Part shown: in pieces, positions 35,431 to 43,625 of the stretch | Numbering within the stretch: the stretch's first letter is position 1 | Layout: each line of letters opens with the position of its first letter | Origin: Chitinophagales bacterium | Lineage (GTDB): Bacteria > Bacteroidota > Bacteroidia > Chitinophagales > UBA2359 | Reading direction: 5' to 3' | Assembly: GCA_020629005.1 (NCBI GenBank) | Contig: JAHDEE010000005.1 | Location: forward strand, 23,418 to 78,112 | DNA: 54,695 nt | Notes under the pieces: generated by a model | The model's database searches: none | What the model saw: the letters and a program-made list of their open reading frames with translations, nothing else | Told to the model about the DNA's origin: nothing | Position numbers and translations under genes: made by a program

Positions 35431-36555
35431 TTAGAAGCCAGCTTTCCACTTTTGGCTGATTTGGTAGGCCGTTTCAATCATACAGTCCTCCCACTGCTCG
35501 ATTCTCCAGTCAGAATCGGCAAGACTAGAGTATTGCAGTCTCGTTCTGACCTCTTCAAGCGAACGAGACTCTTCTAGAATCTTTGATAAAAGAGACTGTT
35601 GTTTGGCCAATAAAAGATCTTCATAAGGCGCTGCCAGGGGAGTAGTTATTTTTGGCGTAAAGTCTCTTTTTACGGAATGTTCACGTTTGCTTTGAGAAAC
35701 AATTTCTTTCATGTGCATAAAGTCACGACGAAACTGGTTCTTTTCTTCCGGTTTCTTAAGTGCAAAACCCATGTGCTCCAGCATTACAAATTGCACATTC
35801 GGAATCCGCGGTAAGACTGCTTCAAGATATTCGAAAACTTCTTTGGGTACGGCTTCATCATGAGTATCTCTTCGTATCTTCTTGCTGTTATCAGTCATAC
35901 TTGGTTCCCATGATCCACCTGAAATGTGGACTTCCCTAACCAAATCCAAAGGATAGAGCTCAATTATCTTCTCAAACGGAACCTCGAAATTTTTTACTTG
36001 ACAGTAGAGATTGTGCAGGTCCAGAATTATGAAACCATTAACTGCAGATACAAGCGTTTCCAGAAAATCACCATGAAACCTAATGTCTTCCAGGCTATAA
36101 GCAAAAGCCAGATTTTCCAGGCCGACGGGACATGCTGCTGCATCTGCAAGTCGACATAATCGATCGTGAGCAAGCCGGATTGTAGATTGGTTGAAAGGAA
36201 CACTAAGTGGAGCGCCCTTATGAAAGTCCTCGCCAGTCATGAATCCAAAGTGTTCACTAATATGTGCGAAGTCGAAAGATTTTCGTGTTTCCTTCAACTG
36301 GTCAAGCCACTCTTCCTGAGCAGGCTTCCAGGCACCAGAAAACAAAGAGTAATATACTCCATGCCCAACAAGTCGGCCTTCTTTTCCGTACAGGGCGATC
36401 AAATCTATAAACCATTGAGGGATACTTCGATGACTAAACAAGGCATCGAAGGACCACTCAATGGCTTCCACGCTACCCTCTTGAAAAAGAGGTAAAGCGG
36501 TGGCTAGTATATTCCTATCTAAATTGCAGGAAATACCGCTAAAAACATCGTTCAT
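35431..36555 (-). CDS. DUF692/MNIO (multinuclear non-heme iron-dependent oxidative) peptide-modifying enzyme
   Basis: The protein has 374 residues; the family TIM barrel is usually 270-300. The metal-ligand set is complete: His65 (H-G-V-Y-Y-S), His98/Glu101 (H-I-S-E-H), Glu147-Asn148, Asp179/His181/Asn182 (D-L-H-N-L-Y), His210, Asp230/His232 (D-T-H-D-E) and Glu260 (L-E-H-M-G-F). Relatives MbnB, TglH and ChrH oxidise cysteines of ribosomal peptides. It starts 12 bp after a Cys-bearing lipoprotein peptide gene, its likely substrate. The extra C-terminal 75 residues, mostly helical, may do the job of the separate partner protein (DUF2063 or MbnC type) that is absent here. Confidence 0.9.
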   Translation of the reverse strand: MNDVFSGISCNLDRNILATALPLFQEGSVEAIEWSFDALFSHRSIPQWFIDLIALYGKEGRLVGHGVYYSLFSGAWKPAQEEWLDQLKETRKSFDFAHISEHFGFMTGEDFHKGAPLSVPFNQSTIRLAHDRLCRLADAAACPVGLENLAFAYSLEDIRFHGDFLETLVSAVNGFIILDLHNLYCQVKNFEVPFEKIIELYPLDLVREVHISGGSWEPSMTDNSKKIRRDTHDEAVPKEVFEYLEAVLPRIPNVQFVMLEHMGFALKKPEEKNQFRRDFMHMKEIVSQSKREHSVKRDFTPKITTPLAAPYEDLLLAKQQSLLSKILEESRSLEEVRTRLQYSSLADSDWRIEQWEDCMIETAYQISQKWKAGF

Positions 36556-36567
36556 TAAAGAAAAGGA

Positions 36568-36765
36568 TTAGCCCATACCGCAGGCAGGGCAATTTTCCCA
36601 ATTGTGCTCCTCTTCAGGATCACCTTTGTGCTCGGAGTCACAGTCACTGGGACAATTAATGTCGTGTACAACAGCCGCATCTTCAACTTTTTCGCAAGAA
36701 CTGATGCCAGCTCCAAGGGCGAGACCCAAGGCTACGGTTGCTAAAAGATTACCAGGAATTTTCAT
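36568..36765 (-). CDS. Cysteine-bearing lipoprotein peptide, probable MNIO substrate (RiPP precursor)
   Basis: The product has 65 residues from the ATG at 36765; a TTG two codons earlier is less likely. A signal peptide (about 5-23) ends in G-I-S-S-C, a lipobox with Cys24. The mature part is only about 40 residues, acidic, with Cys38-P-S-D-Cys42 and a C-terminal Cys59-P-A-Cys62-G-M-G. It lies 12 bp upstream of the DUF692 enzyme in the same direction. By analogy with bufferins and other MNIO substrates the paired cysteines are likely modification sites, giving a membrane-tethered metal-binding peptide. That is inference; the residues and arrangement are seen directly. Confidence 0.78.
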   Translation of the reverse strand: MKIPGNLLATVALGLALGAGISSCEKVEDAAVVHDINCPSDCDSEHKGDPEEEHNWENCPACGMG

Positions 36766-36914: not shown

Positions 36915-39900
36915 CTATTGGTCCTTAGCTGCACGAATAATGATACACTCGTCTGAGCCTATGCTTATCTGCACCAGGGCTTCCATTAAGCAGCCATTTT
37001 GGTCACTGAAAAGTAAGAAGTATTCTCCTTCATTGGCACTACCAAGATTGCTTATTGAGAGTGTTGGACCTGATGAGAAATAGCCATCTGGCCCGGTCCA
37101 ATTATAGTCTCCAGAAACTGTGCTGCTGGCGGTAACACTCAAATCTTCACCATAGCAACCAGAAGCAAAGGGATCTACAGCAAGTGTGATTTCGGTTCCC
37201 ACATCCAGAAACAAACTATCTGTCCTACTGCATTGGCCATTTTGTGCGCTGACATAATAATATCCTTCGTTCTCGGCCAGGACTGGCGAAATTGTGTTGG
37301 TGCTGCTAGTTGAGCTGAAGTTACCAGGACCTGTCCAACTAATGCTTGCTGCATTGCTGGTTGTTTCTATGATTGCTTCATCTCCATGGCAAACTTCGAG
37401 ATTTTCATCCAATGACAATTCAGGATAGGCCTGCACGTAAATGTCTGCCGATTGTACAGCTTCGCAGCCATTGACATGGGTTACCGTCACGTAATAATCA
37501 CCGCCATCCAGGGGGCTTGCATTTTGTATCTGTACTTCAGCTGTGTTTGCTGTAAAATTGTTTGGGCCCGACCAGGCGAAGCTGTGGTCTTGAGGGTTTT
37601 GAATTATTACACCAATCGTAAAATCATCACCCTCGCACTGCCCATGACTATAGCTTAGCTGAGGGTCTGGTTGATTGCTGACCGTTACCATCATTACATC
37701 AGATCCCTCACAGCCATTTGGCAGGCTAACATTGAGGGTGTATTCTGTGTCAACAATCGGTGAAAATGTAGGGTTGGGAATGCTGGGGTCACTCACCCCG
37801 GTGGTGGGCGTCCAGCTATAAGTTGCTCCAGGTACTTCCTCAAGTTGAAACGCAGGGTCGATTCCCACTTCTGTATCTGAATAGCAATCTCTGTTTAGGT
37901 CTGGCCCCAGCTTTAAAATGTAATCATAATTGTTTGGTGCGCTTGTGACCTGAATATCGTCGGTCAAGTAGCAGGTGTTTTGAGTCGTTTCTCCAAATGA
38001 GATTGTGAGTTCGTATGTAATTGGCCCTTCTGGACAAACCATTGGATTGAGTATAGTAGGATCGCTCATCCAGGTGGTGGGGTTCCATTGAAATCCTGTT
38101 ACATAGGACATGAGCTCTTCGCTTCCGTCTCCCACCGTTGCATCCAACTGATAGCAAAGGAAATTTGAAAAGCAGTTGGGTCCAATCTCCTCTAGAGCAA
38201 GTGTGAAATTGAGATTGGGGCTTATTCTCACAATTGGAATTATATCTGTAAATGAACCACAACCACTGTCCAGATCAATAAGGACCTCGAAGACTGCGAA
38301 ATTGACTGTGGTATTTTGATCAAGAAGCAAAACATAAGTATCCCCTTGTTGCACAAGAGTCGTTGCAACTGGATCTCCGGCGGTTTGCACTACCTGAATA
38401 TCATCTGGGAAAGTGAAATTGTAATTCGAGAGCAAACACTGATCAAACAGATCTATCACATATTCATCGCTGTTGGTATTGCAAGCAGCATCTGCTTCGG
38501 TAATTTCTTCTGGTAGCGAAAATTCGAGATCATTGATAGGATGTATCAGTTGTTGACAGGCGCATTGGTCGGTAGAAACGTCGAGTAGAAGATTGCAAAA
38601 ACCGCCAGATGGCATGTCAAACTCTGAATCAATCGAAATGGTTGACATGGCTGGAATGTCGTTAGTGTAGAGTGCCAAATGTAACATAAGGTCGATATTG
38701 CTCTCAATGCTTCCATTCTCATTGACATCATACCAATAGCGGATTTCTGTATCACCGGTTACAGGTACTTCAGTGGCATTCTGCAGTATGGTATTGATTT
38801 GAACTTGTTCCCCATCACAACTCACAGCTGGGCTCACCTCACCGCTAATCGAGATCACTTCATAAAAGGAAGGAATCTGTACTTGCTGCTCACTTCCATA
38901 TGTTGTGATTACATCAAGTTCGCAGGGATTGCCCGAGCAATCCACCTCAGTAATCTGATGGGTTTCCACAATGAAAACACCTTCGCAGGCATTGGTTTCA
39001 GTTTCAAATTGTAACTGCATGAATCCTGAATGCCCTTCTGGTAGATTTATGCAAACGCGCGTAAAGCCGGCACCGGCACCAACGACATCGGTTGTAAGGC
39101 TGGACAGATCCCAGCTGGCCGGAGCCACGGCTTGCATGCTTCCATCGACGAAATCCAGGCCAGTCGGAAAAGTAAAACAAACTTCCTCACCTGGCTGAAC
39201 TGCCAAATCCGTTGTTAAGTCAAAAATGTTGATTGTAAAGGAATGGGTATCTCCGCAGTCGTATGGTGCTATGTCGATCGTCGATATGTACTCATTGAAT
39301 TGAGAAGGGTCCGTACCTGCAACATAATATGGGTCACTTGCGGCGACTTTACTATTGATTGGTTCGCCACATCCGTTGGTGCCTTGAGAAAATAGTTTCA
39401 CGAATCCTCCCGATTCGTAATTGCAATCGGCCACTACGTCAAAAGCTATATATAGTCTGTTGTTGGGACTGTCAATAACTCCTGTCAAGCCGTCAACATT
39501 GTTGATGGTTATCTGATATTCTTCCCCGTTGATATTGCTAACTCCTGTTGGTGCAATGGTAATACCTGCGGAAGTATAGCTGAATAAGGCAGCATAAGAG
39601 CCATCACCAGGATACTTATAACGTTCCGATCCAGCAACAAGATCTACACCTCCATTGAGCGGCAGATAGAGGAAAGTCTCCAGGTTTGCAACAGGACCAT
39701 CTCTCACAGATTTTACTTCAACTATATATGTTTCAATCTGGCAGTTTGGGCCAAGATAGGGTGGCTCTTGCAAGATGTTAACCTGAAGTTCAGTTGGCAA
39801 GACTGTTATCAGTTGGATTCGATAATCAGTGAAGCAGGAGTAGGTGAGTACAGTTGGTGATTCGTAGTCGGTTGTCCACCGATCATCCGGAAGTGCATCG

Positions 39901-42900
39901 CCGAATACTTCTTCGCGAAGACGACTAGGAATCACGTTTCCGTAAATCAATGCTGCCTCTTCTCCTTGAAAGTCACGAATGATTTTTGTTGTTCCCTCGC
40001 GCGGATCTGTTGGATAATCTCCATTGCACTGCTCTCCTGCCCAAAATTCGATAGGGGTAGGGTCACAATTTCTAATACGTACTGTAATATCCAGCTCAAG
40101 GCAGGTACCGTAGGCCATGTCGCCCAGCTCGATGATTCCCAGATGAGAATTGCCGTCCAAATGAGAAACATCTGTGAAACCGATACTAGTGTTTCCAAGC
40201 TGAACATCAAGGATATCGTAAGAAAGCAAATCCGCTTGAAAGCCCAGCCAGGTATTTGAGGCTGCAATCGTATGCTGGCCATTATGACATACCTGCGTGG
40301 TGAAGGTTACGATGTCGTCTGAGGCCACGAAGTTTGGCGCCAAATGATTTATAGTGATTCTTGGGTCGACATGACTGTTTCCATAGTCATCCCAAATATG
40401 GTCGATTTGACGACGCGTAAAGACTTTCTCAGAATTGCAGATTTCGGGACAGTAGGCCTCTGAATAACTATTAACCTTTGCAAATGCCTCATAGTCGTGT
40501 GTCAGAAAGGTGAAATTGTCAGCACATCTGTCGGGAAGGTCATATTCTAGCAATATTGAAACACCAAATGGATCTTCAATGTCAGCTCTATAAAGCGACT
40601 TCAATAAATTGGTATCGACTCGATAGCTCTTCAGAATTAATTCCCTGGCCACGTTTCCAGCATCGGTCGCATAGCTGTTACCATGCAGAGAGACTTGTTT
40701 CTGGATTGTGAGCGTTAAGGGAACATCTGAGTGCAATGTTCCGTCTGCAGTTCGTAGGCTTACAGTCGGATTGAAGTCAAAGTCTAGATCCACAGTGGCA
40801 AATCCGATAATTAGCGAATCCAGATCAAATAGTGGTCGATACTCATCATCCCAGGGGCCAGGACCAAAAAACTGGTTTGCGTAGACGTTCTCAATGTAAA
40901 ATGAATCAGTGGCTGTACAACCCTGCACGCGAACCAGATTGTCCTCGAATTCCTTGAAGGAGGTGGAGTATAGATCAATGTTGTCTGCTCTAGGGCCAGG
41001 GCTAGGGCAGTAAGTATAGCCAGCCAGCTCTCCTGCGTCATTGTATAGCTGCCGAGTGCCAAACAAGGAGTACATTCCTAAATTCTCGACTGGCGCTCCG
41101 TATGTACTTTGATAAGCTTCGTAGAAGTACGGTTCTGTTCTGGGGAGCTTGTATTCCAGGCTAAGCTCAACTCTATATCCCACATGTGCTGGTACGCTAA
41201 AACAACTGAGGTCTAGGGCCATGTCGGCAAAAAAGGTGTTTTGCACCAGCTGGTTTTCAAGGCCTGTAGAAAGGTGTATCGGAGGCCCTATTTGAACACT
41301 ATCGCAGCTGGCCACCTGATTTCCGTTCTGATCCAATAATCTAGCACTTACAGCCCGATAATTGGCAAGTTCAGAAGGCAGGTCATTGGTAAATATCGGA
41401 TCACCAAGAAATAGAACAATATCATCAACATCATTTGCGGTAATTTCTCCGACTGTAATCAAGGAGGCCCAATCACAAGGATAGAGATATTGTTCCATGT
41501 CTTGTTCATTTATTAGATTGCTCATGCTGCTGTCGGTGTAACCCCGGGTTTCAGGTGATCTTGTCACATCGAGTGCAATAGTCCTAATATCACAAGTTCC
41601 TGGAGCACAACCTGCATTCGAAAAATTGTTTGTACGGCAAAGATCAAAATCAAGCGAGCAACTTCCATCGAGGCTTTCACAATGATAAATAAGTCTCGAA
41701 GTAGCTGATAATGCAAAGTCTTCGGGGAGTGTTGCAGGAGGTGCAGAGAAGTTTACTTCAAAGCAAAACCCATTGTAAGGGTACGGGTCGTCGTAATTAA
41801 CTGTATCGTTGTTTGGTGTCAAAGTAAGGATGCCAGTCGTTGCATTCCAGTTCATTTCGGATTGGCTGAGGCTGATCCCCTTAAATCTGATATTGGGGAA
41901 GATGGTAGGGTTGTTAATAGTGGTAGGTAAGGTCAATTCCAGGGATACGCTGTTGTCTCCAGCGCACTCATTTATGTGATTGGTCTCGCTACTTCTGAAG
42001 CAGGACCTTAGAAAGTACGAACTTCCGCAGTCGACACTCTGAGTTAAAGTTGTGTATTGGTCGATGCTTAGATATGGTCGCTCAATATTTTGGCTGGTGT
42101 CATAAGTCTGTCCACAAGCACTGTAAGATACGCTGCCGGAACCGAGCGAACAATAGTTAGTTCGCCGCAAGTAGGGGCAGTCTTCATCGACAAAGCCGCC
42201 GGGGAAATCAAGTAATTCTCCTTCAAAGACCAATTCGAAAGTTTCACCAAATGCCAAGTCGTCGGAATAGCCATCACCATCCAGATCCTCTAGGATTCCT
42301 GAGCCGACAAACGGATCCGACTGAGCGTCACTAAGGTTGATAGAATAAAACTCTTCCCATTTTTGAGCTGATCCTAGACTATAGACTAGTAAACTATCTA
42401 TGGATACTGGAACCTGAACGATGGTGCCTCCTGCCGAAAAAGTGGCCAAGCTATCTGGAAAGAGATTACATGCTCTATTCCTATTGATTTTGAAAACAAA
42501 ATTGGATACATATGCAAACGGAATTTGACTGTCGTCCGACACACTTGAGGCGTTGTCAACAGTCAGCGAAAATGGAAGATCATCGTCTTCCGGGCACAAT
42601 CTCATTTCTCCATAGTTCACTCCAAATTTTATATAGGGATTGATCCCGGATTGAAATTGGTCCAGTGCTATATCGTAATCTTCCAGGCAAGGCTCTAGTC
42701 CAGGCTCGCATTCATAACTTAGTGTATAGTCATGGATAAAGACGCCACCTTCACAACTTGGAAAAACATTGAATTCTTCCTGTATCGTGATAGACTCGTC
42801 TTCGTTTAGAGCGGGGAATCCCAACAAGGCTTGAAAGTCCAGGTCGAGCGTATATTCGTCGCCGGTATCCGTAAGCATTGAAGGCGGAACTGGAATTCCG

Positions 42901-43625
42901 TTTACATAAACATTGTGCAGAGTTACTTCCTGGGCATCGTAGTCGTTCGTGAAAATAAGATTGTCCACATGTGCGCCAATTCCATTTTGACTGATCACAA
43001 TTTCCCGCACAATTCGTCCACCTATAAGGTCTGCAGGAATGTTTGCTGCAGGAAAAGAATTACTTAGAATGTTTAGCACGGGAATGAAGAATGATGTGTT
43101 GTAGGGCGTAATTGGTGTGTAGTTGTCATAGCCGTTCTCACCATTTACGTCCTGAAAGTTAGCAGTGTAGGTAATATTGATTGGTTGCTGAGCCTGTAGG
43201 GCCGTCTTGAGTTCACAGTTCGCTTTTATCGTCAGGTATAGTTTAAGGTAATCGCTTTCTGAGAGATCTGGTAAATCGAATATAGGGGAACTGGTGTCAG
43301 GGTCTAATACTCCTATGCTCAATGGATTTCCAAGCTGGTCCAAACCATAAACCTGCCCATCCCAGGACACATTTTCTGGAAGGCCGACTGTGAAAGTCAG
43401 GTTGCTAATGTCGTCGATTGTTGCTACAATTAGCGAAAGTGTATCTGCTTCGGCGCAAAGCACTATATGATCCGTCTGTGGCTCACCGATGACAGCCCTG
43501 AGGTCAACAATTGCCACTGTCCCGCTTTCCTGTGCCCAAAGCTCCAGCAAACCGGTCGTTGAAAAAAGCATTAGCAAACACAACAAAAGGTGGCGAACTG
43601 AGTTTGGTATTGACATATGAGGCAT
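36915..43625 (-). CDS. Giant secreted surface protein (2236 aa) with C-terminal Ig/PKD-like repeats
   Basis: The protein has 2236 residues with a signal peptide (about 12-31, ending L-W-A-Q); the Met at residue 4 is an alternative start. Most of the chain is beta-rich, with many Asp/Asn/Cys residues and no enzyme motif that I recognise. Roughly the last 245 residues hold three Ig/PKD-like repeats, each built around W-T/S-G-P-x-x-F/Y ... G-x-Y-Y/F-V/L. It ends C-I-I-I-R-A-A-K-D-Q and has neither a type A sorting domain nor the gliding-type C-terminal domain (which begins P-N-A-F-S-P-N-G-D-G). It is probably an adhesin or matrix protein, but its export route is unclear. It stands alone, with about 150 bp to the next gene. 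Confidence 0.85.
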   Translation of the reverse strand: MPHMSIPNSVRHLLLCLLMLFSTTGLLELWAQESGTVAIVDLRAVIGEPQTDHIVLCAEADTLSLIVATIDDISNLTFTVGLPENVSWDGQVYGLDQLGNPLSIGVLDPDTSSPIFDLPDLSESDYLKLYLTIKANCELKTALQAQQPINITYTANFQDVNGENGYDNYTPITPYNTSFFIPVLNILSNSFPAANIPADLIGGRIVREIVISQNGIGAHVDNLIFTNDYDAQEVTLHNVYVNGIPVPPSMLTDTGDEYTLDLDFQALLGFPALNEDESITIQEEFNVFPSCEGGVFIHDYTLSYECEPGLEPCLEDYDIALDQFQSGINPYIKFGVNYGEMRLCPEDDDLPFSLTVDNASSVSDDSQIPFAYVSNFVFKINRNRACNLFPDSLATFSAGGTIVQVPVSIDSLLVYSLGSAQKWEEFYSINLSDAQSDPFVGSGILEDLDGDGYSDDLAFGETFELVFEGELLDFPGGFVDEDCPYLRRTNYCSLGSGSVSYSACGQTYDTSQNIERPYLSIDQYTTLTQSVDCGSSYFLRSCFRSSETNHINECAGDNSVSLELTLPTTINNPTIFPNIRFKGISLSQSEMNWNATTGILTLTPNNDTVNYDDPYPYNGFCFEVNFSAPPATLPEDFALSATSRLIYHCESLDGSCSLDFDLCRTNNFSNAGCAPGTCDIRTIALDVTRSPETRGYTDSSMSNLINEQDMEQYLYPCDWASLITVGEITANDVDDIVLFLGDPIFTNDLPSELANYRAVSARLLDQNGNQVASCDSVQIGPPIHLSTGLENQLVQNTFFADMALDLSCFSVPAHVGYRVELSLEYKLPRTEPYFYEAYQSTYGAPVENLGMYSLFGTRQLYNDAGELAGYTYCPSPGPRADNIDLYSTSFKEFEDNLVRVQGCTATDSFYIENVYANQFFGPGPWDDEYRPLFDLDSLIIGFATVDLDFDFNPTVSLRTADGTLHSDVPLTLTIQKQVSLHGNSYATDAGNVARELILKSYRVDTNLLKSLYRADIEDPFGVSILLEYDLPDRCADNFTFLTHDYEAFAKVNSYSEAYCPEICNSEKVFTRRQIDHIWDDYGNSHVDPRITINHLAPNFVASDDIVTFTTQVCHNGQHTIAASNTWLGFQADLLSYDILDVQLGNTSIGFTDVSHLDGNSHLGIIELGDMAYGTCLELDITVRIRNCDPTPIEFWAGEQCNGDYPTDPREGTTKIIRDFQGEEAALIYGNVIPSRLREEVFGDALPDDRWTTDYESPTVLTYSCFTDYRIQLITVLPTELQVNILQEPPYLGPNCQIETYIVEVKSVRDGPVANLETFLYLPLNGGVDLVAGSERYKYPGDGSYAALFSYTSAGITIAPTGVSNINGEEYQITINNVDGLTGVIDSPNNRLYIAFDVVADCNYESGGFVKLFSQGTNGCGEPINSKVAASDPYYVAGTDPSQFNEYISTIDIAPYDCGDTHSFTINIFDLTTDLAVQPGEEVCFTFPTGLDFVDGSMQAVAPASWDLSSLTTDVVGAGAGFTRVCINLPEGHSGFMQLQFETETNACEGVFIVETHQITEVDCSGNPCELDVITTYGSEQQVQIPSFYEVISISGEVSPAVSCDGEQVQINTILQNATEVPVTGDTEIRYWYDVNENGSIESNIDLMLHLALYTNDIPAMSTISIDSEFDMPSGGFCNLLLDVSTDQCACQQLIHPINDLEFSLPEEITEADAACNTNSDEYVIDLFDQCLLSNYNFTFPDDIQVVQTAGDPVATTLVQQGDTYVLLLDQNTTVNFAVFEVLIDLDSGCGSFTDIIPIVRISPNLNFTLALEEIGPNCFSNFLCYQLDATVGDGSEELMSYVTGFQWNPTTWMSDPTILNPMVCPEGPITYELTISFGETTQNTCYLTDDIQVTSAPNNYDYILKLGPDLNRDCYSDTEVGIDPAFQLEEVPGATYSWTPTTGVSDPSIPNPTFSPIVDTEYTLNVSLPNGCEGSDVMMVTVSNQPDPQLSYSHGQCEGDDFTIGVIIQNPQDHSFAWSGPNNFTANTAEVQIQNASPLDGGDYYVTVTHVNGCEAVQSADIYVQAYPELSLDENLEVCHGDEAIIETTSNAASISWTGPGNFSSTSSTNTISPVLAENEGYYYVSAQNGQCSRTDSLFLDVGTEITLAVDPFASGCYGEDLSVTASSTVSGDYNWTGPDGYFSSGPTLSISNLGSANEGEYFLLFSDQNGCLMEALVQISIGSDECIIIRAAKDQ

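Follow-up and report, generated by a model that had tools for sequence, protein, structure and literature searches.

The closest described counterpart of the locus reported here is DybA/DybH, a two-gene 'DAG-RiPP' system (Chen et al., bioRxiv, 1 November 2025; PMC12636315). DybH is active without a partner protein and recognizes only the C-terminal motif CPxCGMG, and these seven residues are sufficient for modification, even on GFP. From CPxCGxG, the enzyme produces a macrocycle and a hydantoin with one free thiol, corresponding to a mass change of -4 Da. The same change has been reported for ChsH and HymH, that is, for all tested Bacteroidota outside Chryseobacterium, and the ArlA/ArlH system gives a mixture of products. 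DybA is tri-acylated on its lipobox cysteine, and the lipidated two-gene form has been purified and characterized. A C-terminal helical domain is a trait of the DybH subfamily; in cyanobacterial relatives this domain is encoded separately, as the required protein MelHc (PMC12636315). The chryseobasin chemistry of Chryseobacterium leads to an S-methylated product with a mass change of +10 Da (PMC10214503).

A gene pair of this type is located on the minus strand of the window, which is the whole analysed stretch of 54,695 nucleotides from a Chitinophagales bacterium. The precursor gene (36568-36765, stop codon within the coordinates) encodes 65 amino acids and lies upstream of the gene for a ChrH/DybH-type MNIO (DUF692) enzyme of 374 amino acids (35431-36555), from which it is separated by 12 bp. 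Coordinates and translation agree with a sequence-only reading of this DNA, which had described a 65-residue lipoprotein precursor with C38, C42, C59 and C62 at this distance upstream of a DUF692 enzyme. With a probability of roughly 0.88, the locus is a DybA/DybH-type DAG-RiPP two-gene system with respect to its chemistry and its lipidated tail, extended by a box in the precursor that is found in part of the family. The base system has already been published as a kind, while the sub-branch with a second peptide module is apparently undescribed. The earlier statement that a lipid-anchored MNIO product with a one-gene tailoring set is little described has been outdated since the publication of PMC12636315 in November 2025.

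The enzyme is the only DUF692 protein encoded in its own genome, and the C-terminal pattern CPxCG[ILMF]G finds only the precursor there, with no further substrates unlinked to the enzyme. A DUF2063 (PF09836) gene was not found in the assembly, which is 96.7% complete. The earlier view of an MNIO that has a lipoprotein-type substrate and constitutes a single tailoring gene without a separate partner is correct. The Bacteroidota promoter pattern TTTG-N17-23-TANNTTTG had 0 matches in the window. Upstream of the precursor, an apparently secreted protein of 2236 amino acids with repeated immunoglobulin-like stretches is encoded (36915-43625, minus strand), which is probably unrelated because no counterpart was seen near related loci.

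A match to PF05114 with 97.1 bits (cut-off 25) confirms the enzyme as a DUF692/MNIO protein. Its full metal-ligand set, which had been noticed from the sequence before, lines up with the His/Glu/Asp ligands of the solved proteins TglH and HS_1138, and the residues H65, H102, E147, D179, H210, D230, H232 and E260 are invariant in an alignment of 50 homologues. Subfamily membership is apparent from the ChrH model NF050165, which matches over its full length (positions 4-361 of 363) with 384.8 bits and thus below the curated cut-off of 600. DybH of Dyadobacter crusticola reaches 385.0 bits and also stays below this value, so the cut-off delimits the enzymes of Chryseobacterium rather than the subfamily as a whole. 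The other NCBIfam models gave 81.4 bits for the bufferin (BufB-type) MNIOs with a cut-off of 310, 63.7 bits for HvfB and 36.8 bits for ApyH. The enzyme shares 54% identity with D. crusticola DybH over the full length (377 columns). The homologous locus L018 is that of D. crusticola DSM 16708; at the tag position of PMC12636315, its precursor reads Met26-Asp27.

An AlphaFold2 model of the enzyme (pLDDT 90.9) predicts a TIM barrel, which (residues 2-291) superimposes on TglH (8hi7) with a Z score of 25.0 and an rmsd of 3.0 over 268 residues, and on MbnB with a Z score of about 24. The range matched to TglH and MbnB excludes a C-terminal helical domain at about residues 296-374 (35434..35670, minus strand), which is predicted to form three helices and is conserved in 27 homologues. 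A Foldseek search of the PDB with this domain gave no match with E under 2; a resemblance to MbnC, TglI or an RRE, though it may exist, did not emerge from this search. The sequence-only reading had treated the last 75 residues as an extra part of the enzyme that may replace the missing partner. Such a partner role is plausible and fits the MelH/MelHc arrangement. The domain is shared across the family and is no addition of this enzyme. Its proposed helical nature is in line with the three-helix prediction; a likeness to a known partner was not recovered by Foldseek at the E value given above.

Variation in this domain was observed in two further loci. A Melainabacteria MAG encodes the C-terminal enzyme domain in its own frame of 100 codons directly after the enzyme (L076:6791, frame start; E 4e-5), and the substrates upstream exceed 340 codons, an arrangement that equals the published MelH/MelHc. 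In an actinobacterial MAG of the Acidimicrobiales, a ChrH-type enzyme lacks the C-terminal helical domain (L077:6001-6831); it follows after 14 bp on a long precursor that has no lipobox and ends in CPACGMG. Near this enzyme, no separate ORF for the C-terminal domain was found.

The precursor, with the sequence MKIPGNLLATVALGLALGAGISSCEKVEDAAVVHDINCPSDCDSEHKGDPEEEHNWENCPACGMG, contains five cysteines, which are located in the lipobox ISSC (C24), in the linker (C38 and C42) and in the C-terminal CPACGMG (C59 and C62). The signal peptide (residues 1-23; 36697..36765, minus strand) has its hydrophobic stretch at residues 7-21 and ends at the lipobox ISS/C. Cys24 (36694..36696, minus strand) is the predicted lipidation site and mature N-terminus, and the equivalent cysteine of DybA is lipidated (PMC12636315). 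A simple pattern recognizes a lipobox-type cysteine in 131 of the 135 unique family precursors. The motif CPACGMG (residues 59-65; 36571..36591, minus strand) is the predicted site of MNIO modification; it corresponds to the invariant core of the family, is the commonest form of this core (73/97) and is modified in DybA and ChrA. The model NF050125, 'chryseobasin-related MNIO class RiPP peptide', covers the precursor in full with 36.6 bits, slightly below its curated cut-off of 40, plausibly because of the extra H-x3-C-x3-C-x3-H box described below. DybA reaches 61.1 bits, and all 18 aligned relatives match this model. The chryseobasin precursor model NF050124 gave 11.8 bits (cut-off 50), and no credible relative with a solved structure was found (best E 0.22).

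A lipobox peptide ending in CPxCG(M/L)G is encoded directly upstream of the enzyme in nearly all of 80 homologous loci. In an order-level sample of 398 genomes, ORFs with this ending occur in 35, and in 34 of these the enzyme adjoins on the same strand. The Saprospiraceae-like family f18 (398 genomes) gave 50 matches, all of them with the enzyme alongside. The pair therefore passes the test of conservation in related genomes that had been named in the sequence-only reading. In a class-level sample of 295 genomes, the Met form of the motif was found in only 3 genomes, each with a strong ChrH-type match, and it was absent from the genomes of this sample with only other MNIOs. The pairing of enzyme and precursor is not due to chance. 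Beyond these two genes, no conserved neighbours were found in the 80 loci; an ECF-sigma-like family occurs near 13 of them and SusC/D-like families near 9-12.

Several relatives deviate from the simple pair. A fourth strong ChrH-type match in the class sample (G101:C41:410-1282, L099) is partial, lies near a contig edge and contains one in-frame TGA, and its genome has no matching precursor C-terminus; this copy is either a decayed gene or an assembly error. Two or three precursor genes in tandem are found at L035, L050, L056, L057, L055, L072, L066, L024 and L081. The second copies at L035 and L050 lack the lipobox cysteine, so one enzyme may yield both lipidated and non-lipidated products. 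The pair at L081 (CP034120.1, labelled as the chromosome of the gammaproteobacterium Glaciecola amylolytica) is placed by the enzyme tree within the Fluviicola clade, which points either to horizontal transfer or to an assembly that is mislabelled or contaminated.

The -4 Da chemistry, lipidation and partner independence have been demonstrated by others in relatives (PMC12636315), and by analogy the same chemistry with an unmethylated product would be expected in this organism. In the cytoplasm, the iron enzyme would act without a partner and carry out a four-electron oxidation of the C-terminal heptapeptide CPACGMG. Cys59 would be joined to the former side chain of Cys62 to give a small ring, and the carbonyl of Cys62 would be rearranged into a hydantoin, with one free thiol left (-4 Da). 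The peptide would then be exported, lipidated on Cys24 and cleaved by signal peptidase II, and the modified tail would therefore hang from the membrane, tethered through a flexible acidic linker.

Two other outcomes of the enzyme reaction have to be weighed against this scheme. According to the sequence-only reading, the product would be a bufferin-like metallophore with thiooxazoles on CPSDC and CPAC, and indeed the enzyme is matched by the bufferin maturase model, and about 16% of the Buf2 bufferins carry lipoprotein signals (PMC12452194). However, the ChrH model scores 384.8 bits compared with only 81.4 bits for the bufferin model, a value far from the cut-off of the latter, and the chemistry of the ChrH/DybH subfamily leads to a macrocycle and a hydantoin and not to thiooxazoles. 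Together with the lack of a DUF2063 partner in the genome, the absence of GMG-ending motifs from those genomes of the class sample in which only other MNIOs are present, and the restriction of DybH to CPxCGMG (PMC12636315), this makes a bufferin-like product highly improbable. The two proposed modification sites also have to be separated. CPAC lies within the CPACGMG core and is a predicted site, but CPSDC is very unlikely to be modified because enzymes of this subfamily read only the C-terminal CPxCGxG; its cysteines C38 and C42 form the middle of the conserved linker box.

Within the chryseobasin-related chemistry, the enzyme could alternatively produce an S-methylated, ChrH-like product (+10 Da). 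An identical core motif yields this product in Chryseobacterium, and a mixture is formed by ArlA/ArlH. Against this stands that DybH, ChsH and HymH all give -4 Da, and that the enzyme described here groups with these enzymes and is considerably closer to DybH than DybH is to ChrH (40% identity). Methylation is thus improbable, and the unmethylated DybH-type product is the preferred reading.

The linker of the precursor contains a box, H34-x3-C38-x3-C42-x3-H46 (36628..36666, minus strand), which is conserved in relatives and is a candidate metal site. Of 135 unique precursors, 22 contain the general form [HC]-x3-C-x3-C-x3-[HC]; by a stricter definition of the linker, 20 boxes were seen, 17 of them non-redundant, compared with a mean of 0.01 and a maximum of 1 in shuffled linkers, a control that ignores shared descent. 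The box lies 7-13 residues after the lipobox cysteine and 7-20 residues before the core. Its four positions are constant while flanking residues vary, with the consensus H-x-x-[TNS]-C-x-x-[DNG]-C-[DEQ]-[IVS]-[DEN]-H. With the spacing kept, the first His is replaced by Cys at L150 (CCCH), and both outer positions are Cys at L163 and L164 (CCCC); related sets of His and Cys with other spacings occur, for example, at L178, L186, L191, L058 and L166. Box-bearing precursors belong mostly to the Saprospiraceae-like part of the family, one of them to the culturable species Flavilitoribacter nigricans (L004), and the box is absent from DybA, which is the best-characterized member, and from the precursors of Chitinophaga and Hymenobacteraceae. 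On the enzyme tree, the box is clustered but not confined to one clade. A single origin was not borne out: parsimony requires at least 11 changes (shuffled mean 19.6), but well-supported branches force only 2, so either gain or loss may account for the pattern. Inspection of the neighbours of six box-bearing loci revealed no common theme and no conserved metal-related neighbour.

The exchange of His and Cys at the outer positions would be the behaviour of metal ligands, and the most likely role of the box is to bind a metal, copper or zinc, or else to act as a redox-active thiol pair. The segment C-x3-C-x3-H presumably resembles Sco proteins or the cytochrome oxidase CuA loop. As disulfides between C-x3-C cysteines can arise in the periplasm and outside the cell and the product is exported, it is quite possible, though short of probable, that the box is disulfide-bonded or purely structural and binds no metal. 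A simple disulfide, however, requires neither the swap of outer His and Cys nor the preserved x3 spacing. If the box binds metal, Saprospiraceae-like bacteria would produce a bipartite peptide in which a macrocycle and a four-ligand metal site are combined, and a metal role of this DAG-RiPP branch would follow, namely capture or delivery of copper or zinc at the envelope. This proposal is tentative, with odds clearly below even. A second peptide module, placed between the lipid anchor and the core, appears to be undescribed so far, and in the main text of PMC12636315 neither Saprospiraceae nor zinc nor a motif of the H-x3-C-x3-C-x3-H type is mentioned. The box with its ligand-type swaps in part of the family is thus a concrete lead to the function of the product, which is unassigned in PMC12636315.

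The residues following the lipobox cysteine bear on the destination of the product. The lipoprotein export signal of Bacteroidota, which flips lipoproteins to the cell surface, is C-X-K-(D/E)2-X (PMC5080379). Among 103 distinct stretches covering positions +2 to +7, position +3 is Lys in 41% and position +5 is acidic in 59%, and x-K-[DE] is present in 21 of the 103, such as C-GKDDQ in Chitinophaga. This C-x-K-[DE] pattern suggests that the modified tail of many Bacteroidota precursors may face outwards. Since the linkers of the family are generally rich in K, D and E, the surface-export reading is no more than suggestive, and the precursor described here fits the signal loosely with CEKVEDA. 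Surface exposure is, through these LES-like residues, a second idea open to testing. The product is likely a modified peptide that has a lipid anchor and a second site of the metal type; it is possibly exposed on the surface and would act at the cell envelope.

Compared with known systems, the locus is most similar to DybA/DybH, with which it shares the two-gene unit, the lipobox precursor, the CPACGMG core, the lack of a partner and a TIM barrel with a fused helical domain at its C-terminal end. It differs in the length of the precursor, with 65 instead of 50 amino acids, and in the acidic linker with the H-x3-C-x3-C-x3-H box, which DybA lacks. ChrA/ChrH of Chryseobacterium (PMC10214503) has an enzyme of the same NF050165 subfamily over the full length and the same C-terminal CPACGMG, but ChrA carries a signal peptidase I signal and gives the S-methylated product, and the chryseobasin cluster also encodes ChrI, ChrE and ChrP. 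The Melainabacteria system MelA1/MelH/MelHc (PMC12636315) shares core motif and chemistry; its substrate MelA1 exceeds 30 kDa, and its C-terminal enzyme domain is a separate small protein, unlike the fused domain found here. The bufferins (BufA/BufB/BufC) are likewise exported, MNIO-modified cysteine peptides, some of them with a lipobox, but they differ in their thiooxazole chemistry, their DUF2063 partner, other precursor motifs and an enzyme model that fits the enzyme described here far worse.
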